Shown here piece after piece: positions 6,241-40,519 of a stretch of 64,000 nucleotides of DNA. A model generated the notes under the pieces. It saw only the letters and a program-made list of their open reading frames with translations. It ran no database searches and was not told the origin of the DNA. A program made the position numbers and the translations under genes. Source of the stretch: Phorcus lineatus (Eukaryota > Mollusca > Gastropoda > Trochida > Trochidae); the NCBI GenBank assembly GCA_921293015.1, contig OV121093.1:28964622-29028621 (forward strand), read 5' to 3'. How positions within the stretch are numbered: position 1 is the first letter of the stretch; each line of letters opens with the position of its first letter.

Positions 6241-6650
6241 CCCGTTTCCTTATCTTTTACTTGTAGTAGTAAGGTCATTGTAGAGGTCAAACAATAAAGG
6301 AATATGTTATTATAACGAAATCAATAAACAGAGTCGTAAATGAAACCTTCATTTATGACTTTCCACTTTCCTCTTGAAATGCTTCACCCTTTAAATGGTC
6401 TCTCATTATACAACCCTTCTATTTCTCTTCGTATGAAATTCTTACAGTTACTGGTGGAAAATCTCACTCTTACTATTTCAACTACATCCGGTCAGTTTGC
6501 TACATCGGCACTGATTCACCAGACACGACAGTGGAGATAACTCTGCATGAACTGCACGCTTTACACGTGCTGCCCGGGAGTTGTTTATACTTGTTACATA
6601 ACTGAAATTCCGGCACAACTTCTGTTCATGTATTTGATGTTAACACGTGA
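6241..6650 (+). repeat. Duplicated non-coding block, left copy
   Basis: This block aligns by eye with 15771-16140 in the same orientation. Shared landmarks are GTCATTGTAGAGGT, AGTCGTAAAT, CTTCTATTTC, TGGAAAATC, ACTGATKCACCA and ACTCTGCATGAACTGCACGC followed by a CACGTGCT word. The GCACGTGC-type element (about 6505-6580) is part of the block. From about 6605 it also matches the 3' flank of TRIM B (29880-30110), so the duplication includes the sequence downstream of the TRIM gene. Confidence 0.6.
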
Positions 6651-6952
6651 ATGGGATAAGATAAATAAATCATTTTTTACACTTTTTTATGTTTATGTTC
6701 AATCAATGAAAACTTTTTTCAGGCGTTGATAAATAACTAACTCCTGACATTTGATAATTATTGAATATCTTAAAGTCATATTGAATATGAAAATAAAGTT
6801 ATTGCATTTTTTAAAATGGAAATCATATAATTTGAAGTAAACAGTTTAACAAATAAGCATTTACAAAACATATCGGTTTGGAGTTGTTAAATAACAACCC
6901 GATTGGTTTCTATGGTCACTCATACAACCTTCGCTAAACATTATATGCAAAA

Positions 6953-9098
6953 CTAAGCAAATCTGTATTTGTGTAAACCCTTGTTGCACAATGCAACACA
7001 CAGTTTATCTCCATCAAAACACAAACCAGTTGGACACTCGTAACCATCACCTTCAGTCAGTATGTCTCTGATAAACTCTCCCGACTGACTCAGTTGAATC
7101 ACTTTGTGTGCATTACAGTCAGCTACAAGAATGTCTCCTGTAGAGGTGGATGTGATTCCCCATGGATCTCTCAATGCTCTGTCCCCAGTAGGTGTGCATG
7201 TGAATACAATGTCACCAGACCGTGTCAGACAGATGACAGACTTCAGACCACGGTCTGACACCAGGATAGTGCCTTGTCTGGTTACATGTATGTAGTGAGG
7301 ATTGATGAAGCTCTTTCCTATGCCAGGAAGTGTTGTGAAGGTCTTCAAGATGGTTCCCTTCATATCAATCAGATCCACAGAGGGTGGATTATAAGAACCT
7401 GCCACCAGTGTTGACTGATCCAGAGTAGACAGACCCTTGTACTTCTTACTTGTCTGTATTGTAGACAGGAGTTCCAGGTCAGGAGTAACAGCAACTGTGA
7501 TGATACGTTGAGAAAAGGGAAGAGACACAGCTTCCTTACCTTCACTGATAACTGTCAAACACCAGGGACTACCAGACACTTCGAGTACACTTGAACATGA
7601 CTGTCCTTCTTTAGTGTAAAATGATTTCAGACGTTGAGAGTAACCATCAGCAAAAACTGTGACTTTTGTTCCTGCTATTTTCATGACTAAACAATCTGTT
7701 ACATAACAATTGTCACTCACATTAAGTTTAGCGTCGCTAACTTCAGCTAATACAGGTGCTGCTGTCAGGTCTATGTTATCAATCTGCTGAATGTTAAAAT
7801 CCACCTTGTTTATCATCACATCCATAATTTCAATCTGTTTCTTCAGTTGAGCAAGGTCGTGTTTAAAGCTGATGTCAGCTACATCTGTTTTGTCCTTCCT
7901 CTGTGTCCCTGTGACGTCAGCTCCTGATCCAGACGACAGATACATCTCAAACAGCTGCGCCTCATCCTCCCACTCCAGGGCCTGCTGGATGGACTGAGAC
8001 TGCTGCTGGTACAGCTGTAGATCAATTTGTTTTGTCTTCATCTTGGACCTCAACTGCTTCTTGTCCAGCTCTGTTTGATCTTTCACCTTCTTAATCAGCT
8101 GATCTTCCTTCTGTTTCAGTGCATCAATAGCTTCCTTTATCGTTGTCCTTATATCTGATTCAAGCATGGTCCTTTCATCCAAAAGCATTTTTGTCTGCAC
8201 ATCAATATTTTCAATTTCTCCATTTGTCAATTGAATTTTCTCAGTTAGATCTTGTTGACGTACCTTGAGTCTTGATTTGACCTCTGTCAGCTGTTCCTTG
8301 ATCGTGATGACCTCTTTACATGTTCTATGAGAAATACTGCAGCAGACAGTACACAGGAGTTTGTCACAGTCTTTACAGTAAAGCTTCATTTTCTCCTCAT
8401 GTTCCTTGCAGACCAATTTCTTCTGTCGAGATTTTCTCTCTGTGACTGGTACAACTTCATGAATCTTGGAGATAGGAATTTTACTGTGTAGTTTCAGACA
8501 GCCATCACAGTAAAAAGCTTCACATTCCCCACACCAGTGTCTGGCTGGGGTTGTCTCCCCTTCATCTCTGCATACCTTGCAGTGGTCAGAGCCTGAAAAT
8601 AACGATGTAAATCTTGCATAATCTGTGAAGAATGACATGATATAATTATGTCATATACAAATCAAGCATTATAATGACCAATGATTATTATAACGTTAAT
8701 GTAAACATAATAAAGATTAGCGGCTTCATATAATCAGCACACTGGTACCGTTATATCCCTCAGTGCTCAAATGTTAAGAATCAAAAGAGAATATTAAGAA
8801 TGTTGTTAAAGGTACCTTGACCAACAGTGTCCATGAGTCCAGTTAGAAGCAGGCCTGGTTTTAGCTGCCCCGCCCACTCTTCCACAGGTCTGTCAGGGTG
8901 AGGTACTGGGGTCTCTTGTCTACACGTGGGACAGGGGATGATTTTGTTCCTCACAGCTTCTGCATTAGTCAGTAGATATTTCCCCAGACAATTCTCGCAG
9001 AAGGAATGTTGACATGTAAGGGTTACTGGTCGGTGATACACTTCCATACACACGCTACAAGTCAGGAAGTCATCCTGAAGCTTCCCTGCTGTCGCCAT
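6953..9098 (-). CDS. TRIM protein A: RING, two B-boxes, coiled coil, NHL-type propeller
   Basis: The coding sequence is complement(join(6953..8592, 8816..9098)), 640 residues. The splice is supported by CAAG|GTACC at 8816 and TTTTCAG|GC at 8592, which join in phase and rebuild a Gly also implied in paralogue B. Exon 1 carries a RING: Cys14, Cys17, Cys29, His31, Cys34, Cys37, Cys56, Cys59. Exon 2 encodes B-box 1 (Cys99, Cys102, Cys115, Cys118, Cys123, Cys126, His130) and B-box 2 (Cys156, His159, Cys167, Cys170, Cys175, Cys178, His183). A coiled coil follows at about 195-360, then a propeller at about 375-640 with NHL-like strands such as GTILVSD and GDILVAD. TRIM proteins of this layout are cytosolic ubiquitin E3 ligases, and many act in antiviral or antibacterial signalling. 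The substrate is unknown. The start ATG is in good context (AAAATGGCG), just after an acceptor in the 5' UTR (TTTTACAG at 9120-9113). Confidence 0.92.
8593..8815 (-). other. Phase-1 intron of TRIM A
   Basis: This 223-base intron separates the RING exon from the B-box/coiled-coil/propeller exon. It begins GTACCTT and ends with a pyrimidine-rich tract and TTTTCAG. The intron of TRIM B is at the same codon and in the same phase and is 237 bases long (31871-32107). Confidence 0.9.
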
Positions 9099-9599
9099 TT
9101 TGTATTGTAGACCTGTAAAATTGACAAATGAAATGTCACGGCTAAGTGAGAATTTAAAACAATGTTGTTTGGTCTCTTTAAATTAATTTTTCAATGACTA
9201 ACTATATCTAAACTGAATGGGTAGACATGACCAGACATCATCTAAGTCTGATTTCAAACAACAAAAGACAACATAAATAAAGGTTTGATTTTACTGGGGG
9301 TTGTAAACAAAGTGTGAATGTGCTAAGTGAACATAACGCATGTATGTAGGTCATAACCAAGTACAAAATCATCTCTCTTTCCAAAAAGTAGAACTTTTAT
9401 ATAGAATAGAAAATTACCAACATCACACACAGTATCTTGCATAACGAAAATGAGGAGCGATACCCGCCCTTAATGGGCCACAGAGTACGTTGTCGTCAAA
9501 TTTGACAAACTTCATAAATGCTGTTATTTAATCGAGAAGTATAGGTTGTTTCAGGAAAACGGTATCCCAATGCTTATAAGTTCAATATAGTGACAATAG

Positions 9600-9790
9600 A
9601 CCGGTTCGTGTTGTGATTTGTGATCGAAAACCGGACAGTACCATGAGCCAATGGTTCAAACATAATTTTCGGAAACAAATTTTAGCAGACACAAAGACAA
9701 ACATTGGTTATCAGTGTTAAGTAGGTTAATTAACTAATATACACGTTAAATTGGCACATATTGCGAATCTTTAACAGTTTTCCCATTATC
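9600..9790 (+). repeat. Repeat carrying the GAAAACCGGACA motif, copy 1
   Basis: This aligns by eye with 52170-52340 in the same orientation: ATCGAAAACCGGACA, CAAAGACAAACAT, TAAGTAGGTTAATT and CACGTTAAATTGG-like words occur in the same order. Here it falls within the presumed 5' UTR intron of TRIM A. It is non-coding. Confidence 0.45.
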
Positions 9791-10276
9791 ACTGAAAACA
9801 AGAAAATATCTTAATTTGGGCATTTTAGAGATAAAAATGCAAGTTTAGGGTAGTCATTTCAAACTAACTGAGGACCTAAGTATTTTGGCTCTCACTAAAG
9901 TCATATTGAAAACCTTGAAACATACTCTGTGTCACTCGAATAGACACCCGTGTAGACCCTCAACAACATTTTATTTCTTTTCATTCTGAATAGGGTAGCT
10001 GACATTCCGCCATATCCATGCTAACAATGCAGAAAAATTGTATCTAGTTACATGACACCCTCTCAATATGATAAACCTACGTTATTTGTTTGTCTCAACG
10101 AAGGTCTGTTTATCATTGTAAAGGTTTTTAGTTAAACCGAAAGTGAAAATAGAAACTTGCGACTACAGTAGAGTATTCGTGTATTAAACCGATTTGTAGG
10201 TATTTGTTGCATTTCATAAGAATGCTGTTAAAACGTCAGATATTTATACTGATGAGAACCAAATAAACGATCGTAC

Positions 10277-10400
10277 CTTAAGATAGGATGTGTCTGAACT
10301 AAGAGTTGTTCTCAGCACACACTGTGTACCTCTCCATGACTGTCACTTCCCTCTCGCCGTCTCGGCTGTCAAGCTCGCTGCTAGGCTGGTCACGTGACTG
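10277..10400 (-). promoter_or_regulatory. Probable 5' UTR exon and promoter of TRIM A
   Basis: On the minus strand this is a locally GC- and CpG-richer stretch ending in TTAAG|GTACGA at 10277, a good donor that could join the 5' UTR acceptor at 9113. A second possible donor (GAGAG|GTACAC) lies at about 10328. At 10389-10398 is GTCACGTGAC, a 10-bp palindrome identical to the CLEAR/E-box consensus bound by TFEB/MITF-type bHLH factors in other animals. No TATA box was seen. The start of transcription cannot be placed from sequence alone. Confidence 0.4.
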
Positions 10401-12946
10401 TCTGTGTGTGGCCCTGAATGAGCGTACAGTGTAATACATTTATGACAAGTTAATATGTGTTTGGAGTTATCACCCTGTTAATTTGATTTGTGTTAGTTAG
10501 AGCCATATTTTAACCCTCGTAACTCGTAACACAAGAAAACACAAAGTGTTGTTCCTTTCGAGATAAGTTATGGTATGATGTGAGTATGTGAAGTGTCAAC
10601 TATACAGAGTATGCATTTCTTATTCACAGTTTTAGCTAAGCTCTGTCATTTATATAGCGAGTTTATATGTGACTTTGGCGTCCTTATTCGACTTCTGCAC
10701 GCATAGTAATAAATAACAGGAAGTCATTCATTTGTTATTTGGGGTGAATGTGTGTGATGCTTTGAGTTTTTGTCACCATATACGTGCATTACTATTCAGT
10801 TTGTATTAAAGCCAAACTATGTATAATGAAAATAACAGTGCGTATCTTAGCTTTTTACAATGCTACTCCAATGTTTTTAGTTCAGTTCCATCCATGCTTC
10901 ATGTTACAATTATATTTCCCATCATATGAATCGGTTTAAAATAGATAACACCTAGAATGATTAAAAAGTGCTCACACAAAACTGACCGCAAGTGATTTTT
11001 GCTTGACCCATTGTTATTTCCTCTAAGATTATGGATAAACTTGTGAGTTGTAGTGGTCCTTTAAATAGATTTGTAATTAACTAATGATTTTTGTATGATT
11101 TTTTAAGAAATATTTGTATAAAGTCAGCCCTTTAAACTCCGAAAATAACCTTATATATATACTTCAATTGAAAACGTGATTGCTTCTTAAATGGACGATT
11201 TTAATCATGTAGTTTTTGAGAGAGTCGATTGTGAAAAAACTGCAAAAAATTCCAACACGGTCTAGTGTTATGTGATTCACACAGTTTAGTTATCAGACGG
11301 AAAAATCGTGTTTGTTCGAATTACACAAATGTCCAATAGTCCATGAAAAGATATGTTTAAGAGAAAGTTTTATCTGTAAAACATAACACCTTCGAGTGAT
11401 TTGATACATGAGTTTTGACATTACCGGTACTACCTTCATCAGCTATTTCATTCATGATTTCCATTCATAAGTTTTCGTTTCTAAGCACACGAAAAACAGG
11501 AATTTTCATAATATAATCGAATACAATTTATTTTTCCTTGTGGTTACATGCAAAAAATTTCTTTCCTTTAATAACTGAAATGTCCGTAAATAAATACAAA
11601 AACGATACAATCTAGGTTAAATAAGTAACAAAGTTAGGTCTGCTAGGTCTATCGGGACTCATGTAAACAAAGATGGCGTCACCCGTAAAAATCAATGATT
11701 TGGTCAAAATCTATGGAAAAGTTAATGGACGAGTTGTGAATGTTATTTGCCTTTGAACACTTTCATCATATATGTTGTCAAGACTTTTCAGGGGGAAAAG
11801 CAATTAAGTACCTACTGTAGATATAGACTTACTGTTTAGCCTATTGTCCAAGCCATTGTACAGTGACTTGTCATCTGATGAAGAATAGTTGCGATTGAAT
11901 GAAAAGCTTCTTTACCTGTTGACAGTTTTTGAGGCATAAATTTCAATGTTATTCCCTTTTGAGACCAAATGTTACGTGTGCCATTCAAAACGTGTCTTGT
12001 TCATCCGTTGTTTCAGAACAGTTCTCCACGTCACGACCCGCCTGGAGTGACAGCCGACTGGCGTTGAGCCGAGGTTTAGGTCATGTTTATCAGTTCCAAA
12101 TGATTTGTTACAGATTTGTAGCTGAAACCATGTCTTTAAATGAAATGAATTAAATATTTTTTGTTTTCAAGGCTCGTGACAAAGCAAAATTATTTCACTC
12201 AGGACATAAACTTGATATGAAAGGGGAAGCTCGCTTGATATCCTATAAATCAATAACTACAACTTCCTATTTCATTGTCCTTCTTTCCCATAATGTGCTC
12301 CGATGAACAGGTACTTGTAGAAGAAATACCACACTCGGTCTACGTCGTCAGTACTGAAGCGTTCGTAAAATATTACATTACACTTGACATTTCTCCCTGC
12401 ACACATTTCCCAAAACATGACCTCCAGCTTCTTGAACCTCGATACACTCGTTACTGAAATACTACTTAGTGTATCATCTGAAGAATGGTTACAATCTATC
12501 TGCAATGCTTCTTTAAACTTAACCCACTGCCTCATCAAACGTATTCACTACATGATGGAACTCGAACTAGATATGGTTAGCCTACTTGTTCAACATAACC
12601 AAAATTTTATCTTAAATGGCGAAAACATGCAAAGTCCTTGAATCCCATGTGCTAAAAATTCTTTTTCTACCATTTTTTACTTAGTTATGCAGATAATAAG
12701 AAAATGGTTTCCGTTCAACAACCAATGCTCGTTCGTCCTGGAATGATCGACCTACAAAAACACAGCCTAAGATTGACTGGACTACTGCACTGACCTGGAG
12801 TGATGGACATGAGTCTGTGTAACAAAAAGTCAGCTCCGCACAAAATGATTTTGTTAATTACTGAGAACGGCATGTCTTGGAACTATTGATGTCAAAATTT
12901 ACTCACCAGGATAAAAAGTTGAAATGAGCTTAATACATAATCTTTA
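10401..12946. other. Non-coding stretch with degenerate duplicated segments
   Basis: No gene was recognised. About 11830-12090 and 12440-12850 share a weak repeated pattern (ATCTGAAGAATGGTT..., AATGCTTCTTTA...) with each other and with 47690-48190. The open frames here have no family features and differ between the copies, so they are not called as genes. Confidence 0.5.
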
Positions 12947-13555
12947 CCCAGCAGGCAATCTGACGTTTTATCAACGTTAAAACGACGTCGCGTAGCAACG
13001 TTGAAATAACGTTGGCATTTGATTGGATTTGTAATTTGCGGACGTCGAAATCTGATGTTGTTTTGACGTTGAAGCCAAGACGTTGTATTGACGTTGAAAA
13101 GACGTGATTATGAAAATGTATGTTGTCAGTTCTGAACATAACTGAAAAAATTAAACCTGTTGAAAAATACCATATATCTTGTTAATTCTAATTAGAATAG
13201 GGACAGAGTTACCTCCCTTTATTGTGAAATTGAAAGAAATTAACTTTTATTTATCTAAATCCAATATTAATAACACCTTTAAATGTCAATGATAGCTTTT
13301 CGTTTTTGCATTTTTTATTTCATTCTTTAAAACAATACATAACTTATTTGATGTTATTAATAATAGTGAAATGTTATAAAATTAACCCATTGTCAGTTTT
13401 AAGTTGTTTTGATAACGTTGAGACAACGTCAAAAAACAACCAAATTTCAACGTCAGGAACCTAACATTGTTCCGACGTCGAACATTAGTTGATCGACGTC
13501 CTGACCTGAAATCAACCAAATTTCGACGTCGAAATGATGTCAGATGCCTGCTGGG
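12947..13555. mobile_element. Non-autonomous DNA transposon (MITE-like), TA-flanked
   Basis: The element is 609 bp with imperfect terminal inverted repeats: TTACCCAGCAGGCAATCTGA at the left and, read inward from the right, TTACCCAGCAGGCATCTGAC. If the flanking TA at 12945-12946 and 13556-13557 is the target duplication, the termini are CCCAGCAGGC...GCCTGCTGGG. The outer 150-200 bp on each side are packed with short AACGTTG and ACGTCG words in both orientations, and the centre is AT-rich. No transposase frame is present. The superfamily is not assigned. Confidence 0.85.
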
Positions 13556-14282
13556 TAATTACATCGTTCTTTATGCACAAGATCATTCCAAACACTGAAC
13601 ATTGGAGCTTTAAGAGTCTGTGATTGATTCAAGATTCATATCTTTGGAATAATTTTTGTGTATAGGTGTTTGATTTCATTAAATATCTGCATTTCATTTC
13701 ATTTGCGATTTTTCCTTACAACCACATCCAATGTCGTATGTCCTGCACTGCTCATCTGGTGGTGGCGTTATATGACTATCAGTTTTGCACAAATTGGTGT
13801 AACTATTTGCTGAAAAAGGCATATATTTGAGTTAAAACAATTCCTATCATTAGAAAAAAAATTCTGATGACCATGTCAAAAGAATAAGATAATAAGTTTC
13901 TTCTAGTGTTTAAATGTGAGTCCAACCAGAAATGAGTGTCAGAGGCAAAAAAGAGTGGACACACGTTTTGTCGTGGATACGTTTCTTGGCTTATTAAAAA
14001 GAGATATTTGACAAACTGATGTTTTAAATGTTGCTCAGATGTCCACGATGATATTTCTATTTCTATTGGAATCCTGACTCGTGTCATTGCTCTGTTAAAC
14101 GTTTATTTGGCTTGGGGTTTTGTTTTAAAATTCGTAGGTTGAAATCTGAAAACTGAAAACGGCTCTTCTTTACAGTGATCTTGACATCTTTGTCATCTTA
14201 AGTTTAATATTGTCAGGAAAGGGGATAGGCGGATGAAGATAAGACCAATTGTCGCCTTAAGCTGTGCAAGGCCACAGGACAA

Positions 14283-14545
14283 AAACTAGTGGAATCTGTT
14301 CACCGGATTCCTTCCGGATCCCAATGGATCCCAGCAAATTTGGGATCCGGTGCCGGATACCTCAACAGATTCCGGATCTGGCCCGATACCACTGGATACC
14401 TCACTGGATTCTTTCAAATGGGTATACTGAGATCCGGTACCGGATACCTCAATGAATCCAGGATCCGGCCAGACTCTCAATGTATACCTCACCGGAACCA
14501 GATTAGCAGACATTACAGGTATCCGGTGCCGGATACATGACCAGA
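14283..14545 (+). repeat. GGATCC/GGATACC-rich repeat, plus copy
   Basis: This stretch is built of degenerate short units around CCGGATCC, GGATACCTCA and CCGGTGCCGGATAC. It matches, in inverse orientation, 58756-58952: both share TAGTGGAATC, GGATTCCTTCCGGATCCCA and GCAAATTTGG in order. The open frames on both strands result from the repeat and are not genes. Confidence 0.75.
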
Positions 14546-14569
14546 TCCTGTCTCACTGCTAGGAGTAGT

Positions 14570-14880
14570 GTTTTGAAATGTCATTACAACATGAATATAA
14601 TTACATTGACCATGTCAATAAGCTTTCAAATAAACCCCTGCCACATCCTCAATTTTGGGTGTAGGATATATTTGTCTTAATTCTACAATCAGTACATTCT
14701 CAAAATTTAGATCCCTAGCATAATTTGTCTCTGGACAAATATGACAGAAGATTTTGAGTAACCTGCCTTCCCTATACAGGGCAGTCTGATGAGCTAAAAT
14801 TTATAACTACTGTGGTTATTTTTCACTTCAGATATAGACAAATTTCTCTGTGTTACCCACAGTGAAAAAACTAAAAATAC
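14570..14880 (+). repeat. Interspersed repeat, copy 1 (second at 56660-56945)
   Basis: The two copies share CATATCAATAAGCTTTCAAAT-like text, then ATCACTAGCATAATTNGTCTC, GACAGAAGATTTTGNGTAAC and GTCTGATGAGCTAA, in the same order and orientation. Non-coding. Here it follows the GGATCC-rich repeat directly, while at the right end the two are about 1.8 kb apart and in opposite relative orientation. Confidence 0.7.
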
Positions 14881-15770
14881 TTTACATTACTTGAAGCCTT
14901 AACCTTGAACCAATTTACTAGTACAAACATGCAGTTGCAAATATGACACTTTGAAATCACTGAACATCAAAACAGAAGCCATAAATTAAAGCAACATACC
15001 ATTTAGATAGTGAACAAATGTAACATTGTTATATTTTGGATCACACTAAAAGTACAATCTTTTTTTGCCTCTGTGTCAAGTTCTTAGATGAGTACTATTG
15101 ACAAAAACTTTCTCCACAAAAATTGTCATTCTCATTCTCCTAAAATATTCCTAGGTGAGGTATACATATACAGGTATACAAGAGTTTTCATATTCAATTG
15201 AACCTTTTAGTTTCAGAGAGCTAAGTAGAATATTCCACAATGGTATTCACACTTAAAGGCACAAGCTTGAGCACACAGAACAGAATCTGTCCGCCAAGTC
15301 ACATGGTACCTTGACCTCAATTAGATTGAAACGGAAAGTTTCTTAATGCAGCAATGTCTAAATGAATGTGCTCTTCGTGTGTGAGTCTAATTCGGAGATT
15401 GTATGCTCCTGTAACAGGTAACAGGGAAAAGGACCATGTACCTCTGCGTCTTCTGAATGTCCTTAATTTGATTCAATAGGCTAAACTGGAAGAACTGGCG
15501 ATGGACCATCATTTGGAATCTTGTAAGACTCGACTCTGAATGCTATTCTTTACATCAGACATTCATTCAGACACGTTTTTCACTTTGACAATACATGGAC
15601 AAAGTTTCAGTGTAGACATTTCCTGTTCTGTCAAAAAACTCACATCTTGATACTGATTAGTTAGGGCATCGTGGTTGCTTCATTGTGTTAATGAAAATAT
15701 AACCATAAGACATACCAAAATTTAGCAAAATTATCTGCTCAGAGTACAATAACCTATGTCAAGATTTTCC

Positions 15771-16140
15771 TATTTTCCCATCTCTTTTACGGTATTTATA
15801 ATGTCATTGTAGAGGTAAACCAATAATGGAACTTATATTCATATCAACATTAATTACCAAAGTCGTAAATACTAATTGCACTTACAACTCTCTGATCTCC
15901 CCTTGAAAATGTTTTGTTTTTCTTTTTAAAGGCATCTCTTGATATAGACCTTCTATTTCGCTACTCCTACAATTATAACAGCTACTGTGGAAAATCCTAC
16001 ACTTAGTACTTCAACTGTACCTTTCACTTCGACACCTCGGTACTGATGCACCAAACTCGACAGCGGAGATGACTCTGCATGAACTGCACGCTTTTCACGT
16101 GCTATTGATGTTTTATAACTGAAATAACGGTGTACATGTA
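15771..16140 (+). repeat. Duplicated non-coding block, right copy
   Basis: This is the counterpart of 6241-6650. It contains the ACTCTGCATGAACTGCACGC word and a CACGTGC core at about 16070-16105. No coding potential was seen. Confidence 0.6.
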
Positions 16141-16511
16141 TAACCTCAAATAGCTCGAGCAAAAATGAACCTTGGAGTTATTCAGGCTCCTCTCAAAGTA
16201 CTCTTTTGCCACGTGACTGTGCGAGCGTATTGTGTTTTTAGTACACAAATTTGCATGACTTTCGTTGTAAACGTACTGTCTTATGATGTTAAAAGATCAA
16301 CGTAAATATTAAATTATTTCCTGTCATGTTTTCATAATTTCTATACAAATGAATCGTCAGAGATCATCATATGATGATTTATGAAAGTATATAAAAATGT
16401 TCAATATCACATGTGATTGAAGAATACTAAGTTGTTTCATTTCAAATATTCAGTTGATAAACCACATTTTAACTCAAATCACCATGACAACAGACACATG
16501 TACCGACACTA

Positions 16512-16585
16512 TTGCACTGATTCAACTGCCTTCTGAAATTGACACGACCAGCACGTGCCGCATGCTTTTGACGTGTATCGGTATT
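16512..16585 (+). repeat. GCACGTGC-palindrome element
   Basis: The motif order is GCACTGATTCA, TGAAATTGACACGACC, AGCACGTGCCGCATGCTTTT, then GACGTG. It is closely related to 27670-27745 and more loosely to the copies at 6.5, 16.05, 20.85 and 23.97 kb. Confidence 0.55.
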
Positions 16586-16589
16586 TGTC

Positions 16590-18165
16590 GTAATTTAGAA
16601 AAATATCCCTCACTTATTTAGTCCAGTACACCCAATGGATACGATACCAAACCGATTTCTTAACCAGCCCGCAGAATAATAGATATACATAAGCTGCGTT
16701 ATGACAGGAAAGGGTTAAAACTACTATCCTTGCTTGTAGCCAACTGCGCTGACAACGGTTTACTTTTAAAAATTAAAGGCACTTGATCACCGTTATGTAG
16801 GTGATTTGAAGTAATTTTGTTTCACAAGGTTTTCTCTTTTAATTTTGGGAGAATTTCGTTCTAAAAGTATGCACATTAAGTTTGATCTCGAATTACCTTT
16901 ACATCATTTAGATTTCTGGTGTTGAATAACAGAAATAATGGAAGAACCAAAACCTGTTATCTTTCCGTCACAGTTTTTAACCATATTGCATATAGTTTAA
17001 GAAATAATAGATATTGAAATACATATATTATTAAAACATTTTAAGCAGATATGACAAGATTATAAAACTTGGATTTTGCCGTTAGTATTAACATTGTATA
17101 ATCTGAAACTTGAAACTGAAAAAAGAAACAAAAAATTGTATAAGATGTAAACATAAACAATCAAATAGCAATCTTGTTACATGAACAACACTTTAATACT
17201 CACCATTAACTATAAATTAGACCTCTAATGTAATAATATTTAGAAAGAAGTAAAATATAGACACCCACTGGAGTTGTGTTTGAAACTACCTCCCATTGAT
17301 AAAAAGAGAATCTTATTGCAAGGTGCTATCATTTTAACGGGCAGTAGCACACTTTTTGAAGATTTCTTACTAAAAATTTCCATAAGAAACATTTATCTTC
17401 TAAGTCTCAAAACAGCTCATTTCTCTTTATCAAACTTATCACCCGTGTCTGAGAAGGAAATAATCAAGTATCAAGCAAAATCCACTGGTGACCATTTTTG
17501 TGTGAACACCTCTAATCATTTGAGGTAAGGAAACGAGTTCGCATCCATCCGCTTAAACGATCATGGTACATTGGTTTTAAAACATTGTTATGATATTGGA
17601 AACAGTCTTTTCGTTTTCTTACAAATCAATTTTTTCATCTGAAAAAGCGTCCCCCTTAACACTGTGTAACAAAGAGGTGACCATGGGGCTTTGATGCTTT
17701 TTGAAGATTAAAACAACACGCAAACAAGTGCATTTAAGTTGACTGTCTTCTGTTGGATGAATTTTTTATCTTGAAAGTATCATGAAATTAGGTTTCTATG
17801 ATTTTGAGTAATTCCCTGTCTTAACAAACCAGGGCAATCATAGTCCTTGTTGTCCTTTTCTTCTATCTGCATAATAATTGTTTGAAGAATTTTATTTGGA
17901 GATAGTTGTATGTTTGACGAATGTTTGTATGTAACACGGTTAATTCCTTTAAAAATTTACTGATCTCACTCAAAAGTAGCATACCGACTCTAGTCGGATA
18001 GTAAAGACGTCAGTGTGAATGATTTCCGGCAAATTCAATCATGTAATGACGCCTCGTGAATCGTACAAATCAACCAATTAGAGTCGCGTATCCAGCACAT
18101 TCATTGTAGAATACGAAGTTGATATTAAAATCGATCGTTTAAATGATCAATGCCTTCAAAACGAG
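16590..18165. other. Non-coding stretch, nothing recognised
   Basis: The DNA is AT-rich. A single 84-codon open frame at 17274 has no Met-context, domain or splice support and is not called. No repeat family was recognised. Confidence 0.5.
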
Positions 18166-18169
18166 CCTG

Positions 18170-19130: not shown

Positions 19131-19139
19131 TTCTGTATT

Positions 19140-20720: not shown

Positions 20721-20724
20721 TTGA

Positions 20725-29600: not shown

Positions 29601-30220
29601 TTCTAAAATATATTCCCCTAAAGTTTCCCTGACCCTCAATCCAATGTGTCACGTAATATTGTGTCATCGCTGTGTTCAGAACCAACAGCTGCGGTTCGAT
29701 ATTTATTTAGATGATTTAAAATGATAACCCAAAATGTATCCGGGCCTTTTCAAAAAGCGCACAGGGAAGCACATATCCACGTGTCGGAGAGTATTACATA
29801 TTATTAGATGACGTCATCAAGATAAAGTTTTATCTGACAGTAGGAGATGCGCATTAGAACTCCGAACTACCTACTGAAATACCGGCACAACTTGTGTGAA
29901 AGTGTGTCATGTTAAATCATGAATGGGATAAGATCAACAAGTCAGGTTTTTAAAAACTAATAGATCACTGACAACTAATTTTTCAGGTGTTGATTAAAAC
30001 TAAATTCTTGACATTTAATAACTATTAAAAATGGTTGTAATAATATTGCATATGAAAACACTGATAATTGCAAAATTGAAAAATATATCATATTTGAAGT
30101 AGACAGTAGCAGTCATAATATAATACAAGTTACCCAAACTTATGTTAGGTAATTTACTTTTTATACAAGCGTAATAAGCCGATTTGTTTCACAAATACTA
30201 CCTTCATTTGAAATCCTACA
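26700..30220. other. Non-coding stretch
   Basis: No gene was recognised. A GCACGTGC-type element is at about 27670-27745. The last about 340 bases (from 29880) are the 3' flank shared with TRIM A (6605-6850). A short run of TATATG/TATG words is at about 29205-29225. Confidence 0.5.
27670..27745 (+). repeat. GCACGTGC-palindrome element
   Basis: The motif order is TGCACTGATTCACCCACCTC, TGAAATTGACACGACC, TGCACGGGCCGCACGCTTTT, CACGTGC. It is the copy closest to the consensus of this short repeated element, and TGCACGG and CGCACGC words flank the palindrome. Confidence 0.6.
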
Positions 30221-30227
30221 TGCACAA

Positions 30228-32390
30228 CTAACCAAATGTGTATTTGAGCAAACCCTTGAGGTACAATGTAACACACAGTTTATCTCCATCAAAACACAAA
30301 CCAGTTGGACAATGTAAACCATCCTCTTCAGTCAGGATATCTTTAATAAACTGTCCTGACTGACTGAGATGAATCACTTTGTGTGTGTCATAGTCAGCTA
30401 CCAGAATGTCTCCTGTACTGGTGGATGTGATTCCCCATGGACCTATCAGTGCTCTGTCCCCAGTAGGCGTGTATATGAATACAATATCACCAGTCCGTGT
30501 CAGACAGATGACAGACTTCAGACCAAAGTCTGACACCAGGATAGTACCTTGTCTAGTTACATGTATGTAACGAGGATTAATTAAGCTCTTTCCTATGGCA
30601 GGAAGTGTTGTGAAGATCTTCAAGATGGTTCCCTTCATATCGATCAGATCCACAGAGGATGGATTACCAGAACCTGCCACCAGTGTTGACTGATCAAGAG
30701 TAGACAGACCACTGTACTTCTTACTTGTCTGTATTGTAGACAGGAGTTCCAGGTCAGGAGTCACAGCAACTGTGATGATACGTTTAGATCCAATAAGAGA
30801 CACAGCTACCTTGCCTTCACTGATAACTGTAAAACACCAGGGATAACCAGACACTTTGAGTGCACTTGAACATGACTGTCCTCCTTTAGTGTGAAATGAT
30901 TTCAGACGTTTTGAAGAATAATCAGTAAAAAGTGTAACTTTAGCTCCTGCCAATTTCATGACTAAACAATCTGTTACATAAAAATTGTCACTCACATCAA
31001 GTTTAGCGTTGATAACTTCATCTAATACATGTGCTGCTGTCAGGTCTGTATTATCAATCTGCTGAATGTTCAAGTCCATCTTGTTAATCATCACATCCAT
31101 CATTTCAATCTGTTTCTTCAGTTGAGCAAGGTCGTATATAAAGCTGATGTCAGCTACCTCTATTCTGTCCTTCCTCTGTGTCCCTGTGACGTCAGCTCCT
31201 GATCCAGACGACAGATACATCTCAAACAGCTGCGCCTCATCCTCCAACTCCAGGGCCTGCTGGATGGACTGAGACTGCTGCTGGTACAGCTGTAGATCCA
31301 TTTGTTTTGTCTTCATCATCGACCTCAACTGCTCCTTGTCTTGTTCTGTTTGATCCTTCACATTCTTAATCAGCTGATCTTCCTTCTGTTTCAGTGCATC
31401 AATAGCTTCCTTTATAGCTTTCCTTATATCTGATTCAAGCTTGGACCTACCGGACGCTAAGGTTTTGGTTTGAGAATCTAGCTCTTTGTTCTGGACACTT
31501 ATCGAATCAATCTTACCAGCCAGATTTTGTTGGCTGTTTTGAAGTCTTGACTTGACCTCTGTCAGCTGTGCCTTGATTGTGACGACCTCTTTACATGCCC
31601 TATGCTCTATACTGCAGCAGACTGTACACAGGGGTTTGTTACAGTCTTTGCAGAAAAGATTAATTTTCTCCTCATGTTTACTGCATATGAAATTCTTTCT
31701 TCGGATAGGCGATGTTCCTGAATATTTTACAACTTCATGTTTCTTTGAGTTGGGCATTATGCTGTGCAGTTTCAAACATCCATCACAAAACAGAGCTTCA
31801 CATTCATAGCACCAGTGTTTTGCTGGAGTTTTCTTCCCTTCCTCTGTGCATACTGAACAATTGTCAAGTCCTGAAAACCAAGTAAATAACTCAATTGATA
31901 GAACATAATTGACATGACAATATTACATTATGTTGAAACTGTCAATGTGTTTACACATTGGCGGCATCTGTGTATAATTATAAATGAGTATCAAAATATT
32001 GACTATCCCATAAATAGTAATTTATTCAAATCATTCACAACTGACTTTCACTGAAGGCAAATTAGGAGTAACACATTTTCCATAAAGAAGGTTTATTCTA
32101 TGGCTACCTTGTTCAATTGAGTCCATTAGTCCAGTTAGAAGTAGTGATGGTTTTAGCTGGCCGGCCCACTCTTCCACAGGTCTGTGAGGGTGAGGCACTG
32201 GGGTCTCTTGTCTACACGTAGGACAGGGGATGATTTTGTTCCTCACAGCTTCTGCTTTAGTTTGCAGGTATTTTCGCAGACAGTTCTCACAGAAGGAATG
32301 TTGACATGTAAGGGTTACTGGTCGCTGATACACTTCCATACACACACTACAAGTCAGGAAGTCTTCCTGAAGCCTGCCTGCTGTCGCCAT
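30228..32390 (-). CDS. TRIM protein B: RING, two B-boxes, coiled coil, NHL-type propeller
   Basis: The coding sequence is complement(join(30228..31870, 32108..32390)), 641 residues. The donor is CAAG|GTAGCC at 32108 and the acceptor TTTTCAG|GA at 31870. The phase-1 junction restores Gly95, as in TRIM A. Exon 1 is 283 bases in both genes. The RING ligands (Cys14, Cys17, Cys29, His31, Cys34, Cys37, Cys56, Cys59) are intact, as are both B-boxes (CSVC...HWCYEC...FCDGC; CSKHEEK...CKDC...CTVCC). The frame stays open upstream of the first internal Met (31775), which confirms the longer exon. The coiled coil and propeller follow. Most residues match TRIM A. The differences cluster in the linker between the B-boxes and in the first part of the coil, whereas the second part of the coil is nearly identical at the DNA level. 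Expected role: cytosolic E3 ligase with unknown target. The 5' UTR acceptor is at 32405; its upstream exon was not found. Confidence 0.92.
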
Positions 32391-32419
32391 TTGGGATTGT
32401 AGGTCTGTAAAATAATAAG

Positions 32420-34040
32420 AATGTGTGACACATGATATATGTCACATTTCATTGATTATTTGTGGCGTCATCATTTTCTAATCAGTGAGCTAATTGTCAT
32501 TAAACGAATTACAAAAACATAATTAAAGGATGGTTTAAGCATATCATAATACCTGAAGGTGGTTCCTATCCGGGTTATAAATTGTGGACATTGGAATATA
32601 TGATACCAGAAAACAGGTGGCGTTCTCTTTACCATTTGAACAAAAACCTGGTCATTAAACTCCCCCTAAAGATATTCGGAACTACAAAACCCGCAAATAT
32701 TTTATTACACAACACTGCAAAGAGCTTAACAGACTCATCGCATTGACTAGACTCAATAGGTTTATTATAATGATAGCTAAACCCTGCTTAGAGCTGAACA
32801 ACTGAACAAAGCGCTTCTTAAATATTATTTGAGTTAAGTTTTTAGCTATCTGGCAAAGTACTCAATAGAATACACAAATGAAATGAAATATCATGAACTG
32901 AATTCGTCAATTAAATTATAATATTTACTTATTTTATGAAGTCTAAGAAGTATATTTTTACCAAACCATGTAAGCGAAATATTAATTGTTTTTATTCCTT
33001 GAAACTGTTTGCTTTCTAAAATTGTATGAAATGTATTTTCCAATCTTTCCAAAACACCTCTGAGTAAAGTGTCTTGTCATTTTTGGAAGCTTAACTTTTT
33101 ATGTAATTCAAAAATAGCAATATGCCCAGAAATAGCTTTGTTGTTTATATCTTGGGTTCACTCTGACAATATGTTAAGATTGTAAACGATATCGACAAAT
33201 ATCAAGTTTCTAATCATGGATACAATGAGCACTAAAACTAAACTAGTAAAAAGCTATAAAGTGTCGTTAACATTTTAATCTATTAAAAATCAAACCCTCA
33301 TTTTGATCGAAAACGTATCTGATCTGATATCAAATGTAGATTAGTTGACAATTAGCATGCAAGCGTTGATGTTAACTGTAATTCTATTGACTGTCATATC
33401 TCAAACATAGTTTTTGTGCGAAGAAACTATTATCGGAATGATTGACACAGAACATGCTTTGCACAAGTTACGTGTACATTTCCTCGCGATGCTCATATAT
33501 ACAGAAATCGCCTTACACTACATAGTTGTCATTTCATCTTCATGTTAATACATTTTTCAATTTTGCAACTTTTTACAATTTTTATGCATTATGAAACGTG
33601 CACTAAAAACTGGGGAAAACATATTTAAAAAATCAAGTTATTTTGTAAAATACTTGCTTTACATTTGATAAAAGACGTATTTCACAGTTGTACAAATGCC
33701 AATATTACACTTATTTACTTCAGATTCACATCGAGTGCAGAAATTATCTAGTTTGAACTACGGATTATTTCATACAGTTTTTTGGCGTCACAGTATTGTA
33801 TTATCAGTGGGTTATTTTCTAGTCAGTACTGATCTCTTACTGTGCGAGGAAAGAGATGTTTTTGGTGTTTTGATTTTGTGATACAAGGCAGAGAAAGGAT
33901 ACGTCACACGTACAACAAGAAACATCATAACTAATGACTAACGACAAAAATATGACATATAATAAAATGGATAATACACAAAGTGTATTATTGGCCGTTG
34001 GTGAGACTTGAGTACAACATTACTATTGATTAAACGTTTT
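32420..34040. other. Non-coding stretch upstream of TRIM B
   Basis: This should hold the 5' UTR intron and promoter of TRIM B. No GC-rich exon like the one at 10277-10400 and no GTCACGTGAC palindrome was found. No other gene was recognised. Confidence 0.45.
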
Positions 34041-34044
34041 CTTC

Positions 34045-34190
34045 TTACCTTCAAAAAGCTGAACCTGTTATCCGCCCCTCAGATATCTTTCACGTGATGA
34101 TAATGCTAACTTCATATCATGTCAGTTGTACACTGTTATGTTTATCATCCAGGTCAACTTGCCTCTGTTATCACATGGTATTTGTGCGGT
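34045..34190 (+). repeat. Duplicated block, right copy
   Basis: This is the counterpart of 3165-3310 in the same orientation, with CCGCCCC, TTTCACGTGATG and GGTCAACTTGCC words. Non-coding. Confidence 0.55.
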
Positions 34191-34589
34191 GTCAATCGAG
34201 ATGCATTTGAACAAGGTTTAAAAGGTGGTTATATGCATTGGAATTGATTTTGTATACATTTCAATAGATAAACAATTTTGGCTGAAACCAACGTATTTAT
34301 TTAGCTTTTGCAAAGTCAACAAACGAAAAACTAAAATCTGATTTTTTTTTCTTAGACGTCAGATATAACTTTCCATCATAGTTACTAAAAGGTTATATTA
34401 TTTGTATTAAAAAAAGGTAATGAACGATGAAATTCAAGGATCCCGACTGGTATTATCGAACCCGAACATTTCTTATATATAAGAAAATGACCTAGTCTGA
34501 CGGGTTTGAACGCAAACTAATTGAGTTATGGCCCCTTATTTCATCGTCTTCACAATAAACACTGCTCTCCTGTTGAGGAGTAAAGCAAT

Positions 34590-34735
34590 TATTATTTGAG
34601 TGTTGAATAGATACAGTTGAGGGATACAGCTATTATTATTTGAGTGTTGAATAGATACAGTTGAGGGGTACAGCTATTATTATTTGAGTGTTGAATAGAT
34701 ACAGTTGAGGGGTACAGCTATTATTGTGGCTGTCT
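34590..34735 (+). repeat. 44-bp tandem repeat, about 3 copies
   Basis: The unit contains TTTGAGTGTTGAATAGATAC and AGTTGAGGGGTACAGCTATT. TGAGTGTTGA recurs at 34597, 34641 and 34685, an exact 44-base period. No coding role was seen. Confidence 0.85.
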
Positions 34736-35894
34736 GTTAGGTCTTTGTAGCCAAAGGTGTTAGTTGGGATTAGTCCATGATACTGGAGGGTAACGGTTTT
34801 TATTCTGTCTGTCTGTCGGGTTCTTGTAACCAAGGTAGAAGTGGGACACACTTCATGATTGCAAAAGCTCTTTACTATTTCTCTCTGTTCGACTGTCAAT
34901 CTACATGTAACACTTATCTATCATTGTTCACCATTTCTGTTTCAATATACGTGAGGCGAAGTTATCACTAGGTTTGATATGAAGTAGGTTATCAGTCAGC
35001 ATTTATCACGTCATGTAATGACAGGTCAACTTGACATTAGCCACCTACCAGCAGTGTCTACCTACTTTTGAAATAATAAGTTTTGAATAAATATTTATAT
35101 TCTTATAACTTCGCCTCCCTATCAGCATTGCAATGTATTAAGACTTATATAATTCCGTATTATCAATCTGACCAAATTGGCCTCCACTCATCTATATTGC
35201 TATATTGCTATTTGTAAATATCTTATCACATTGAATCCCAATTTTTTCATACTAATATTGAAACTGGTAATACCGTTCAGTGTTTCAGCTATGAGAGAAT
35301 TCAGTGTGTGTCTTGTCTGACAATGTTTTTACATTCCGTTTAGACAAATCCGAGAAAAAGATATAACTGTGATAGTGATATGCATTTTAAGGCCATTAAA
35401 AGTCGTATTTCGTTATTTTTAGACAGAAATCTTTAAACTTAGATAAGTGTTTGATATCAAATCAATCTTCTATCTGTAGATTCAACATATTGATAATATT
35501 TTAAATCACATTCAAAATACTTTAAACAAATACCTTTGTTCATTGTACATCGTCTTAATTGGAAGTAGTCATTGTAGATTCATATCTTGCTGTACTTTGA
35601 TGGTATATCTTTAAATGCAGTTTTATTAACTTATGCATTCTGAAGTCAGTAACAATAACACTTCCATTAAACAAATATTGGACGAAAATGTCCTGCATAA
35701 AACTTCAAATTTCATTCCAAATTTTTTTCATTAATTGATTTTGAAATTTGTGGTTTGTGTATAAAATATGTCTAAAGAAAACAATCTAAAAATTGTATTT
35801 TAGCCGTCACGTAGACGAAAAAACTATCCGTGTTAAAAGCTAGCATAGCTAAACCGAGCCTTTTTCTTATATGTATCTACATAAATATATAATA

Positions 35895-38245
35895 ATGCAT
35901 ATATGTAACGTGTGTGTGTGTAAGTTTCGTAGTTGTGTCAATGGAATCATTTTGTAATTATTTCATTCCGCAGTGTGGTTCTTTAAATGCTTGTGTAGAG
36001 TGAATCAGAGTTTGAGAGCTCACATCAGCGCTTATGATTGCGAGATAAAAACCGAAGCCTGTCCCGGGCACGTGACATGAGTCACAACAAGCAGGTGCAG
36101 TTGGTGTGATAACATGGACCTCATGATACCGAAGTTCGGAGTTTTCTGACCCTGTGCGTCACATGATTAACGCTCAATATGGGTTTCTGAAGATCTCATT
36201 TTTTTTTAGTTTGTGGTCACTGATTAGTTTTTTAGTTATTTCTTTACAAAATGAGTTATTGTTTAGTGCCGATATGTCAAAAGTTCAGACTGAATCGGCC
36301 TGCGCTATAAACATACACTTGGTTTTAACTCAGGGAGTAACTTTGTCATGACACACACATACATACATGATTCTTTTGTTTCAATTAACATCTTTTGGTT
36401 ATGATTTGTTAACGATTTGTACATGTATAACAAAATCTATATGGGAGTGTGCTGAACGCCTGTGTGTATTTTTCACTCAGTATTAACGAACTGTATTTTG
36501 AACTCACAGCAGCGCATGTGCGAGTCGGACCGAATCCTACCTAAACAAACAAATTACATGAGCCCCCACACACGGGTGTTTGACTGTGATATCACTGACT
36601 GTATCACGTTCAATCCTGTACTGCAATGCACAAGTGAACATTATATATCCACGTTCACCTTGACTTATTTTACAAGGACAATCATGTACAGACTGCATGC
36701 AGTTGGCGAGTATAGAGGTTATATTAATGTTCAATTGACTTTGAAATCATTGTCTATGTCGAGATAGAATAGTATCACGTAGGTTCGAATTGCTTACATA
36801 ATTCAAAGATAAAAATTACATTACGAAAAAGGGGGGTTATCATTGAACACAGTATCAGTTTAACATATATAAAGAGTACCTATAAGTATTATCATGAAAT
36901 CTGGCACTGCCTTAATAATTGAATTGTATCCATTAATAAAGAAAAACTAATAACAATAATGAGTCTTTAATTCGTAGCAGTGGTATTCATAAAACTTCAG
37001 ATGTGAAGCGCTTCATGTCGGCACTTTAAATGCAATGGAGTCAACATTCCAATCACATATTATAGCTATAGCACGTGGATTTCATCATCGTCAACATCTA
37101 AATCTGTTAGCATCTTATAAGTCCTCGAAATGTTTTGTTGTGTCAGTATGAGTGACAAGGCTGATATCAACATGTTTCTATTTTCAACACTGTTCCTCGT
37201 GCTCCACAATTTGATGTGAAAACATCAGTCAGATGAATTGACACTTTGCACCGAGCATGATTTTGAGAATAAATATAAATGTTTCCAATTACAAGACATC
37301 ATTGACATAATTCACTAAGATGTGTTGTCTGAATGCAGAGCTGGTAGCAATCCTCCACTGCTAAGGTTATTTTTGTGTGTATATTCTTATGTTCATGACT
37401 TAGATGACAGAGTAAATAATACGATCATCGTTGCTTTATTACACGTGACATGTTGTACATACATTTCATGCTTCAGCTACGGATTACAAATAAAGAGGCA
37501 TCCTACATCCATTCTTCACTAAACTCTCTGGTTTTTCGACTTCTTTTCACCCTGGATAAATGATTTATACAATGTAAAGATTTGGTAACTATGTGGTAAC
37601 TAGTTAGAGTCACATGGCCACATCCTTTTAAATGATTACAAAGATTGCACTTTGAAGGCAATTTAATGGCAACTGGAAATTACTTATTAAATGACATTAC
37701 TTTAAAATCTCACATAAACTTTGAAATATATCAGTGACGAAAAGTGAAAACAGTTAAAGGGGCAGTGAAAACGCGAAACAAAAAACTGTTTTTAAAACAA
37801 ACGTAATGTAGGATACCTCACATTCCATTATTACCTTTTAGTTTCGCAGATTGCATTGATATAAAAAAGTTATTTTACCAATTGCATTGATAATAGCTAC
37901 GATTATCTGATAGTGGATTTTTCATCCTGATATATAAAACAAAAGACAAACGTCTGAAATCTTTTATACAGACCTATCAGCTTATCTTAAATATATACTA
38001 AATATTTGGTGACCATGAGTCCTAATTGAATGAAGCCTGATAAGCCACAGAACCAATAACGCTATTCGAATTGTATTCGAATTGTATTTGACTCTGAATT
38101 CGCTTGACTCTGATTTAAGCTAAACTTGATTATATCACATGTTTTCTTTTGGGTGTATTTTACTGCATAATAATCTGGAAAGAATTTGCACAAGCTCAAT
38201 AGTTGAATGTGACATCTTTCAAAAAAAATCTCAATTCAGAAATAT
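35895..38245 (+). repeat. Segmental duplicon B
   Basis: This aligns, with gaps, to 18170-21758 and continues into the propeller gene and its 3' flank (to about 40500, matching about 23530). It lacks the SINE present in copy A at 18558-18705. Sequence just upstream (35170-35340) also matches 59310-59500. The open frames inside are not conserved between copies. Confidence 0.75.
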
Positions 38246-38504
38246 AGACATGAAGAAAAATCTATTCAGGTTATTAAGTCAGAAAATCAAATACCTTGTT
38301 TTTGTTCACAAAAATTATTATCAGATTGAAAACGATATCCTCTTTGGTTAGAAATATCAACGAAAATGACATGACTACTTGCATAATACATGATGTCAGT
38401 AAGGTAAACATATCTAGATATACAAGGTCGAGTCAACAACACCTCAACCAATGTGATGATTGGACATTTGCCAACTTCACACGGTGTGTACATGTCTGTC
38501 CCTG

Positions 38505-38512
38505 TATATAAG
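38505..38512 (+). promoter_or_regulatory. TATA box of propeller gene B
   Basis: TATATAAG lies 109 bases before the ATG at 38614, a fitting distance for a start site near 38535-38545 and a short 5' UTR. The stretch is absent from copy A, where it falls in the deleted segment. Gene C has a TATAAATA at 50487, 115 bases before its ATG. Confidence 0.6.
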
Positions 38513-38613
38513 TCAAGGTTGTTTTGTGAATATAAGGCACACAACAGGTGCACATTGCACTTGTCTGCTGAACGAGATAAAGTAAACAGCTCGGCGTTAG
38601 TGTTTCATACACC

Positions 38614-40212
38614 ATGGAGTTTTACATGTTATTATCTGGGTGGATCATTGTTTCCCTTCTGTCTGGTGTCAAGGGTAATGATGACATGGAACAGCTTAAT
38701 GACAGAATGGATATTATCGAAAGTACAACTGATATTCTGTCAGAAAGATTTGATGCATTTGAAAACAAGATGTTGACTGATAAAGCTGATATCAGGAACA
38801 AACAGGAAAAAAACATTCTCAAAATCAAGACAGACATAAAGAAGAATATCCGGCGATACATCACTGAGTCCTTGTCCGATATACTGAGAGATGAGTCTGT
38901 AGAAGAACTGATTCAGTCTCAGGTTCTCTCCGAGGTGGGGCATCTAAAACGTGCCAACCATCAGATGAGGAGAGAACTTCATCAGATGAGGACATCCCTT
39001 GTACGGGTTGAAGAGGACAACAGGGTGTATCGAGATGGTCTCAAGAGAGGTGAGAGACAAAACACTAATCTGATGTCTTGTTCTAAGCTTCTGGTTAAAT
39101 CTGAACTGTTTACAGCTCAGCTAGCAGATCGTGACCGACAAATCAGGGAACTTAATCAGAAGCTTTTAGAAAAAAACGATTCGTGTGAACCATCACCTAG
39201 AGTTATAACTAAAGAAATAAATTCACATCTTGATTTGTCTACATTTCTAAAATCCGAAATTTTGACAAATAAGCTTGCAAAGCATGAACGTCAAATAAAT
39301 GAACTCAATGAAACTCTGAAAGAACAAAGTGATTCATGCATATCAAGGAATTCTACATACAATAAGGAAACTGATTCGGCGTTAAATACAAGACAAACAA
39401 CTGTGTCTACTGCTGCTGTACCTAGAGCTATCACAACATCTAAATCAAGCACTGAGAGAAGTCGGATCCTTGTAGTACCAACGGGTTTGTCAGTTCACCT
39501 TCAGATGCGACAGTTCAAAATCATCACAAACTCGTTAAAGATATATCCTCATATTTCCTATAAGTCTTATCAATGTGCACTATATGTTTCCAAAATAAAC
39601 TCTTTGTTGATTAGTCTTTATAACCACAACAGGATCATCATTTCAGAACTGAATACTTCAAAAACTGAAACAATAAAACGCAATGTTAGAACATTAGGAA
39701 TGGCAGCTGATGAAGAAAGGGGAATTGTTTTCCTCACAACATTTAAAACAGTCAGTAGGATGACTTTGCGTGGTAAAACCTTTACTACCTTAGTCAAAGT
39801 ATCAAGTAGTCCTAATGCTATAGGTATATATCCAAAAATAAAGACAATAAATGTTTCTGCTTCTGATGAACTGTTTAAAGTATTCTATGATGGAACTGGA
39901 TTTATATCAATTGACAGTGGTAATTACATGTACGGAGTAACTCTGGACATCACCAAGGGTGTCCTGTATTACAGCAAGGGTACGAAGTTGATGAAAATGT
40001 CCATGGCTTCAGAGATTACTAGTGAAGTGACAAAGTTAAACCATACTTTTGGTGATCTGATTTTCTACCAAAATAACGTGTATTACACTACCTTGAGTCA
40101 ATTCCCCAGTGTATTAGGTGTAATAAATGTAGGACATAACGGTATGTCTAGAACACTTCAAACACTGCATATGACATATGTGTCCTTCTTTTCTATATGT
40201 TTGATTCCATAA
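38614..40212 (+). CDS. Secreted coiled-coil/beta-propeller protein, copy B (intact)
   Basis: This is a single-exon gene of 532 residues. The ATG at 38614 is in an ACCATGG context and follows a TATA box. Residues 1-21 form a signal peptide (MEFYMLLSGWIIVSLLSG core) with no second membrane segment, so the product is predicted to be secreted. Residues about 25-250 are charged heptad-like coil, with two related segments that include RQIRELNQKL and RQINELNETL. Residues about 255-285 are a Ser/Thr-rich linker. Residues about 285-532 form a propeller of six weak blades; strands such as GMAADEERGIVFLTT and GVTLDITKGVLYYS resemble LDL-receptor YWTD-type blades. No named family is recognised. The layout, oligomerising coil plus ligand-binding head, would suit a soluble recognition protein; that is inference. 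ATTAAA follows at 40279. Confidence 0.85.
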   Translation: MEFYMLLSGWIIVSLLSGVKGNDDMEQLNDRMDIIESTTDILSERFDAFENKMLTDKADIRNKQEKNILKIKTDIKKNIRRYITESLSDILRDESVEELIQSQVLSEVGHLKRANHQMRRELHQMRTSLVRVEEDNRVYRDGLKRGERQNTNLMSCSKLLVKSELFTAQLADRDRQIRELNQKLLEKNDSCEPSPRVITKEINSHLDLSTFLKSEILTNKLAKHERQINELNETLKEQSDSCISRNSTYNKETDSALNTRQTTVSTAAVPRAITTSKSSTERSRILVVPTGLSVHLQMRQFKIITNSLKIYPHISYKSYQCALYVSKINSLLISLYNHNRIIISELNTSKTETIKRNVRTLGMAADEERGIVFLTTFKTVSRMTLRGKTFTTLVKVSSSPNAIGIYPKIKTINVSASDELFKVFYDGTGFISIDSGNYMYGVTLDITKGVLYYSKGTKLMKMSMASEITSEVTKLNHTFGDLIFYQNNVYYTTLSQFPSVLGVINVGHNGMSRTLQTLHMTYVSFFSICLIP

Positions 40213-40278
40213 CTCTACTCAATATGGTTGAATATAGAAGTCTGATGTTCTCTTAATATCATCATATTACTATTGGTC

Positions 40279-40284
40279 ATTAAA
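40279..40284 (+). terminator. Poly(A) signal ATTAAA
   Basis: This is 67 bases past the stop codon of propeller gene B, in sequence shared with the 3' flank of copy A. Confidence 0.5.
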
Positions 40285-40519
40285 ATTACCAAAACTTAAT
40301 CTATTAAATAATGAAGAACTGCATGAAAGAAATTGCAATATGAGGACCATTTAACTACTCTTGTTGATATATTTCTCTTATTTTCCTTGAGTATTCGTTT
40401 TCATTTGCAACCATTTAGGAAAATTAAGTGATAATCTTAAGCAGTGCAACAACGCAGATACGTTTTCATGTTGTGATTCAGACTTATAACGCTTGGTTTT
40501 AAAAAGTTTTTCTAATGTA

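Follow-up and report, generated by a model that had tools for sequence, protein, structure and literature searches.

In the gastropod Phorcus lineatus two neighbouring gene families show the same pattern of diversity, a signal of diversifying selection gathered on one face of the propeller which each of them encodes. The window, which here means the whole stretch of 64,000 nucleotides that was analysed (C25:28964622-29028621), contains two units, in each of which a minus-strand TRIM gene with RING, B-box, coil and NHL parts stands head to head with a plus-strand gene for a coil followed by a propeller. By analogy, the locus is best read as a putative recognition repertoire like the finTRIMs of fish, carried on NHL and YWTD-like propellers. 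The genome searched comprises 958 Mb in 74 contigs. Propeller genes are abbreviated P and TRIM genes T, and copies are named by their window position in kb, unit 1 being T7-P22 and unit 2 T30-P39.

Genes of the Two Units

The features of the window are listed by position.

6953..8638, minus strand: main exon of TRIM gene 1 (T7), with two B-boxes, coil and NHL propeller (about 6956-7702)
8784..9182, minus strand: RING exon of TRIM gene 1, best Pfam RING 4.6e-11
9183..21740, no strand: unit 1 spacer; a copy at +217 kb covers 88% of it at 94% identity, and a partial one at +100 kb has 5,759 bases at 80%
18200..21593, plus strand: flank upstream of propeller gene 1, common in pieces to 35879-37894
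21741..23105, plus strand: propeller gene 1 (P22), a truncated copy that lacks residues 1-86 and with them the signal peptide
29308..38677, no strand: unit 2 from TRIM 2 to the start of propeller gene 2, with a copy at C25:28118700-28128699 (93-95%)
30228..31922, minus strand: main exon of TRIM gene 2 (T30), Pfam zf-B_box 6.8e-10, NHL 1.3e-8
32034..32441, minus strand: RING exon of TRIM gene 2, best Pfam RING 3.4e-11
38614..40212, plus strand: propeller gene 2 (P39), 532 aa, with hydrophobic N terminus, long coil, Thr/Ser-rich linker and C-terminal beta-propeller
50575..51771, plus strand: A-type gene, a third type in the array, encoding 398 aa without a Pfam family, four copies in 304 kb, one of them partial

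Both TRIM genes have the parts of TRIM-NHL (RBCC-NHL) E3 ligases. Pfam places a RING finger in a separate exon of each gene and finds B-boxes (zf-B_box 3.9e-9 and 6.8e-10), the TRIM model contains a coiled-coil helix at 109-234, and the C terminus is an NHL propeller. The RING exon and the main exon are presumably spliced together. The original prediction had called a TRIM gene in both units, which stands with the addition of the separate RING exon at 8784-9182 and 32034-32441.

The coding part of the propeller gene is one long exon. Its hydrophobic N terminus, judged by eye from the translations and absent in P22, points to a protein that is probably secreted. A secreted propeller gene had been proposed for both units, but the copy in unit 1 is truncated and the signal peptide is gone with residues 1-86. 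None of the propeller protein copies scanned reached the cut-off of a Pfam model, the best being DUF5050 with 5.8e-5 (22.9 bits, cut-off 27) and GAS with 1.1e-4, and a PDB sequence search gave no match at E 0.1. Homology between the NHL propeller and the P propeller was not detected by a profile comparison based on shallow alignments (probability 0.2%). The P propeller shares 15-18% identity with the YWTD propellers of LRP4, LRP6, the LDL receptor, and nidogen, from which it differs by the long coil ahead of it. In structure scores, for which the aligned range is partly poorly modelled, other propeller kinds were only 1-2 Z units below YWTD (YncE 18.6, WD40 17.8). From the model a YWTD-like type is therefore likely, though not settled.

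Directly past propeller gene 2 a 28-base tandem array with 57 copies occupies 41188-42776, where long open frames look like a by-product. An array of 11 copies of a 43-base repeat is found at 46455-46930.

Homology between the Units

By blastn the TRIM genes of the two units match over 6601-8599 with 29873-31877 at 82% and, in a second piece, over 8813-9121 with 32105-32413 at 89%; the TRIM exons are 82-89% identical and the homology includes a short 3' flank. On the propeller side a patchy collinear series connects 18200-23519 with 35879-40519 at 67-80% identity. E-values of the pieces range from 0.0 for the strongest to 6e-4 for the weakest listed. All 40 scored matches of the piece 18170-18600 are located on contig C25. 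The homologies which had been claimed from the sequence, including those of the noncoding flanks, are thus real, as the flanks fall inside blastn matches, and the orientation with TRIM minus and propeller plus holds in both units.

No collinear homology was found by blastn between the spacers from TRIM to propeller flank (9122-18200 compared with 32414-35879), and when the whole TRIM-propeller spacers of the units were compared the collinear match amounted to 1,043 bases, 17% of the shorter one. Because the spacer is common only near the propeller gene, the two units do not represent one cassette cleanly copied, and their being two copies of such a cassette is ruled out by spacers that are unrelated outside the propeller-side flank. 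Silent divergence between the units (NG86) was 0.24 for the TRIM main exon, 0.35 for the RING-exon frame, and 0.34 for P, values which do not decide between joint and separate copying of the two units.

Copying of the Pair

Each pair has been copied together with its spacer elsewhere on the contig. T7-P22 recurs at +217 kb, where 88% of the spacer is present at 94% identity and 3.3 kb on the P side match at 99.5%; the main exon of P is missing from this copy. It recurs again at +100 kb with 5,759 spacer bases at 80%, and this copy extends beyond P, the following spacer being covered to 63% at 85%. T30-P39 recurs at -875 kb, where 10 kb match 29308-38677 at 93-95%, TRIM and spacer included. A 99% identical P copy at 28128636 had predicted the place of the paired TRIM, which was then found there. 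Unpurged haplotypes are disfavoured as the source of the near-identical copies, which share a contig and do not have the same exons (the copy at +217 kb has no propeller main exon) or the same NHL ends, with 5-7% difference in unit 2.

The pair thus co-duplicates in part, but not strictly. In 304 kb around the window the successor of a TRIM gene is another TRIM in six of 12 cases and a propeller gene in five, one of them a remnant; it was not read for one. P70 comes after an A-type gene. A TRIM stood before the propeller gene in five of six cases, which is not above random order when the remnant is counted as a propeller gene (p 0.22), so that gene order alone carries no significant argument for pairing. 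Spacers are 6-13 kb long, and the limits of the copied blocks do not coincide with the pair; other neighbours have been copied in blocks as well. An obligate cassette, with one TRIM always adjacent to each propeller gene, does not agree with 12 TRIM and 7 propeller genes. From the original prediction of a co-duplicated cassette there remain the pairs copied with spacer at +100, +217, and -875 kb, but not the derivation of units 1 and 2 from one cassette. It had named independent duplication with no conserved pairing elsewhere as evidence to the contrary; the independent duplication is seen, the absence of pairing is not. A count of pairs in the 304 kb gave uniform orientation and adjacency not above random level.

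The Array and Its Genome Neighbourhood

The 304 kb contain 12 TRIM genes, all on the minus strand, 7 propeller genes including one remnant, and 4 A-type genes, the latter two types all on the plus strand. The A-type gene with its flank (50322-60618) has a duplicate at 91999-102274, outside the window but in its numbering, with 97% identity over 10.3 kb, and this duplication carries neither a TRIM nor a propeller gene. Broken copies (P22, P70, P122, p239, T-14, and T138) stand beside intact ones.

Genome-wide there are at least 81 propeller places, at least 54 of them on C25, at least 21 on C15, at least 4 on C29, and at least 1 each on C16 and C9. These are lower bounds, obtained by scoring 81 of 408 candidates (86 matches, of which 5 are small fragments of places already in the count). 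The places on C25 form three stretches, each on a single strand (5 of 5, 37 of 37, and 12 of 12), a uniformity which fits tandem growth and an inversion of the last stretch. L038 (C25:29321614) and L039 (C25:28829971), two propeller genes separated by about 490 kb, are nearly identical by eye and look like another recent long-range copy. Relatives on C15, C9, and C29 (L043, L044, L045, and L042) have 41-57% identity, with clusters on C15 and C29.

Sequence Exchange inside the Genes

In bins of 100 bases T7 and T224 are 95-100% identical at 7.8-9.3 kb and 89-97% at 7.2-7.8 kb, and no bin below 7.2 kb exceeds 75%. The drop falls within the part that encodes NHL, so that the recent copy has its edge inside the NHL region and the two TRIMs have different ends. 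Among 11 TRIM copies the identities of the front half and of the NHL half are uncorrelated (r -0.09). Silent divergence in TRIM is about 0.95 at the B-boxes and 0.33 at the C-terminal end, with a minimum of 0.05-0.06 over the first NHL blades; dN/dS is 1.1-1.3 in those blades and 0.65 at the C-terminal end. Gene conversion in which residue differences are kept would fit this profile of silent divergence. Exchange in P is milder, with a correlation of 0.49 between coil and propeller identities in 13 copies.

Signal of Diversifying Selection

Codon site models were written in Python and applied as the tests M1a/M2a and M7/M8. For the NHL domain (246 codons in 11 of 12 TRIM copies, T138k being left out for a frameshift) 2dlnL was 191 for M1a/M2a and 202 for M7/M8, with 11-12% of sites at omega 6.7-6.8, and on the front-half tree the signal was 225. 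For the P propeller (14 of 18 copies, four on other chromosomes being left out) the values were 93 and 121, with 13-16% of sites at omega 3.4-3.6, and 6 copies gave 47. Stop codons were masked, and columns were dropped at more than one gap in the 11- and 6-copy sets or more than two gaps in the 14-copy set.

In the control regions 2dlnL was 13.2 for the TRIM front half, a weak signal (p 0.001), and 1.8 with 5 copies or 2.9 with 13 copies for the P coil, where P22k had been left out and M7/M8 was borderline in 13 copies (6.1, p 0.048). Null simulations without selection reached at most 8.7 in 40 runs. With four recombinant segments, and modelling neither biased conversion nor synonymous rate variation, the highest of 58 null runs was 17.1, compared to 194 for the real data by the same procedure. 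The original suggestion of recognition-type proteins is in line with this mark of diversifying recognition in both families.

Position of the Variable Sites

The top face of a propeller is made by the D-A and B-C loops of its blades. With a blade registration by the NHL motif, whose limits were initially set when the variable columns were already known, 18 of the 19 NHL sites with posterior above 0.95 fell into D-A/B-C loops and one into a C-D loop, while none of 130 strand codons was affected. In P the D-A/B-C loops contained 15 of 18 sites, an A-B or C-D loop one, and strands two. When strands were taken from the AlphaFold2 model, 14 of the 19 TRIM sites were found in D-A/B-C loops, four at ends of A or B strands, and one in C-D; the contrast between the faces had p 0.002 with two strand limits set by hand, and in the best-modelled stretch 390-550 the loops of the two faces differed by 8 of 45 versus 1 of 28 (p 0.07). 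The B-C residue positions agree with a HMMER alignment to TRIM3 NHL. For P residues 362-532 AlphaFold2 strands put six of seven sites on D-A/B-C loops, one of these six being in the poorly modelled C-terminal tail and labelled D-A by hand; the other 11 sites lie before residue 362, where the model is poor. According to the available part of PMC9070667 the top surface of known NHL domains binds RNA.

Comparison with Known Systems

The closest precedent seen appears to be the finTRIM family of teleost fish, for which the accessible sections of PMC2657112 describe B30.2 loops under diversifying selection (M1a/M2a 208). As far as these sections go, both are large, recently duplicated, clustered TRIM sets in which the loops of the recognition end diversify (208 versus 191) and the front part gives a weak signal. 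The recognition end is B30.2 in finTRIM and NHL here, making the present set finTRIM-like in its probable working and not a member, and it has a linked, probably secreted family, whereas those sections describe none for finTRIM. The expanded array and the hypervariable NHL face distinguish it from TRIM2, TRIM3, TRIM71/LIN41, Brat, and Mei-P26. In the extracts at hand, plastic NHL RNA-binding surfaces are described between proteins and not as a repertoire within a genome, and a search of open-licence papers yielded no report of TRIM-NHL proteins under diversifying selection. Extracts of PMC8382680 list a bivalve-expanded B-box orthogroup among immune-type expansions; it has the B-box expansion in common with the TRIM array, which does not establish that the family is the same.

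Interpretation

The interpretation which we consider on balance probable is that of a mixed array with a co-copied TRIM/propeller pair, in which both families have been diversified on one propeller face for recognition in innate defence. The window would be one section of a large mixed array of genes, lying on a single chromosome, that may have grown by tandem and segmental duplication, with the head-to-head pair among the pieces copied whole; TRIM and propeller neighbours would have been copied together because they are adjacent. The TRIM protein would be a putative cytosolic E3 ligase whose top NHL face binds varied targets for marking by ubiquitin, its neighbour a putative secreted, coil-multimerised protein binding varied targets with its top propeller face, and both would serve innate defence. 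It is possible that the two proteins act together. Judged by analogy, defence appears the likeliest cause of the diversification.

The pairs of both units, copied with their spacers, their head-to-head order, and the same face diversified in both families would also be expected of functional partners, a secreted protein and a ligase whose genes stay linked and are amplified as one unit, possibly from a divergent control region common to both. This is rather unlikely in view of the unequal numbers (12 to 7), the runs of TRIM genes, an adjacency not above random order, the other neighbours inside the copied blocks, and spacers of 6-13 kb. Any recognition arms race gives the same sequence pattern, and own-kind recognition (allorecognition, gamete or symbiont recognition) might drive both families in place of defence. 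We regard this as unlikely too, and a little more so, since the antiviral TRIMs covered by the available sections of PMC2657112 are known precedents for diversification at one end of a ubiquitin ligase, and no result among those tested points to reproduction.

The selection signal might finally be spurious, the product of gene conversion or of constraint relaxed while the array decays, as the exchange is strong, the identity matrices of the TRIM halves are uncorrelated, silent divergence is uneven, and several copies are broken. Against this, the recombinant nulls, within the limits of their model, stayed far below the real data, the NHL strand codons are all spared, and the signal persists on the front-half tree, so that an artefact is very improbable. 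More speculatively, and doubtful at present, this could be a two-compartment recognition locus, in which linked arrays of intracellular NHL ligases and secreted propellers have hypervariable faces and the repertoire would be renewed by crossovers in the TRIM exon, which would copy the pair and at the same time swap the NHL end.

Most of what is known of NHL domains concerns their binding of particular RNAs or proteins. If the NHL face in Phorcus is hypervariable for binding, the NHL fold would have become a recognition repertoire as well, as B30.2 did in TRIM5 and the finTRIMs. A second, adjacent family, without a Pfam name in the copies scanned, has the same diversity pattern.
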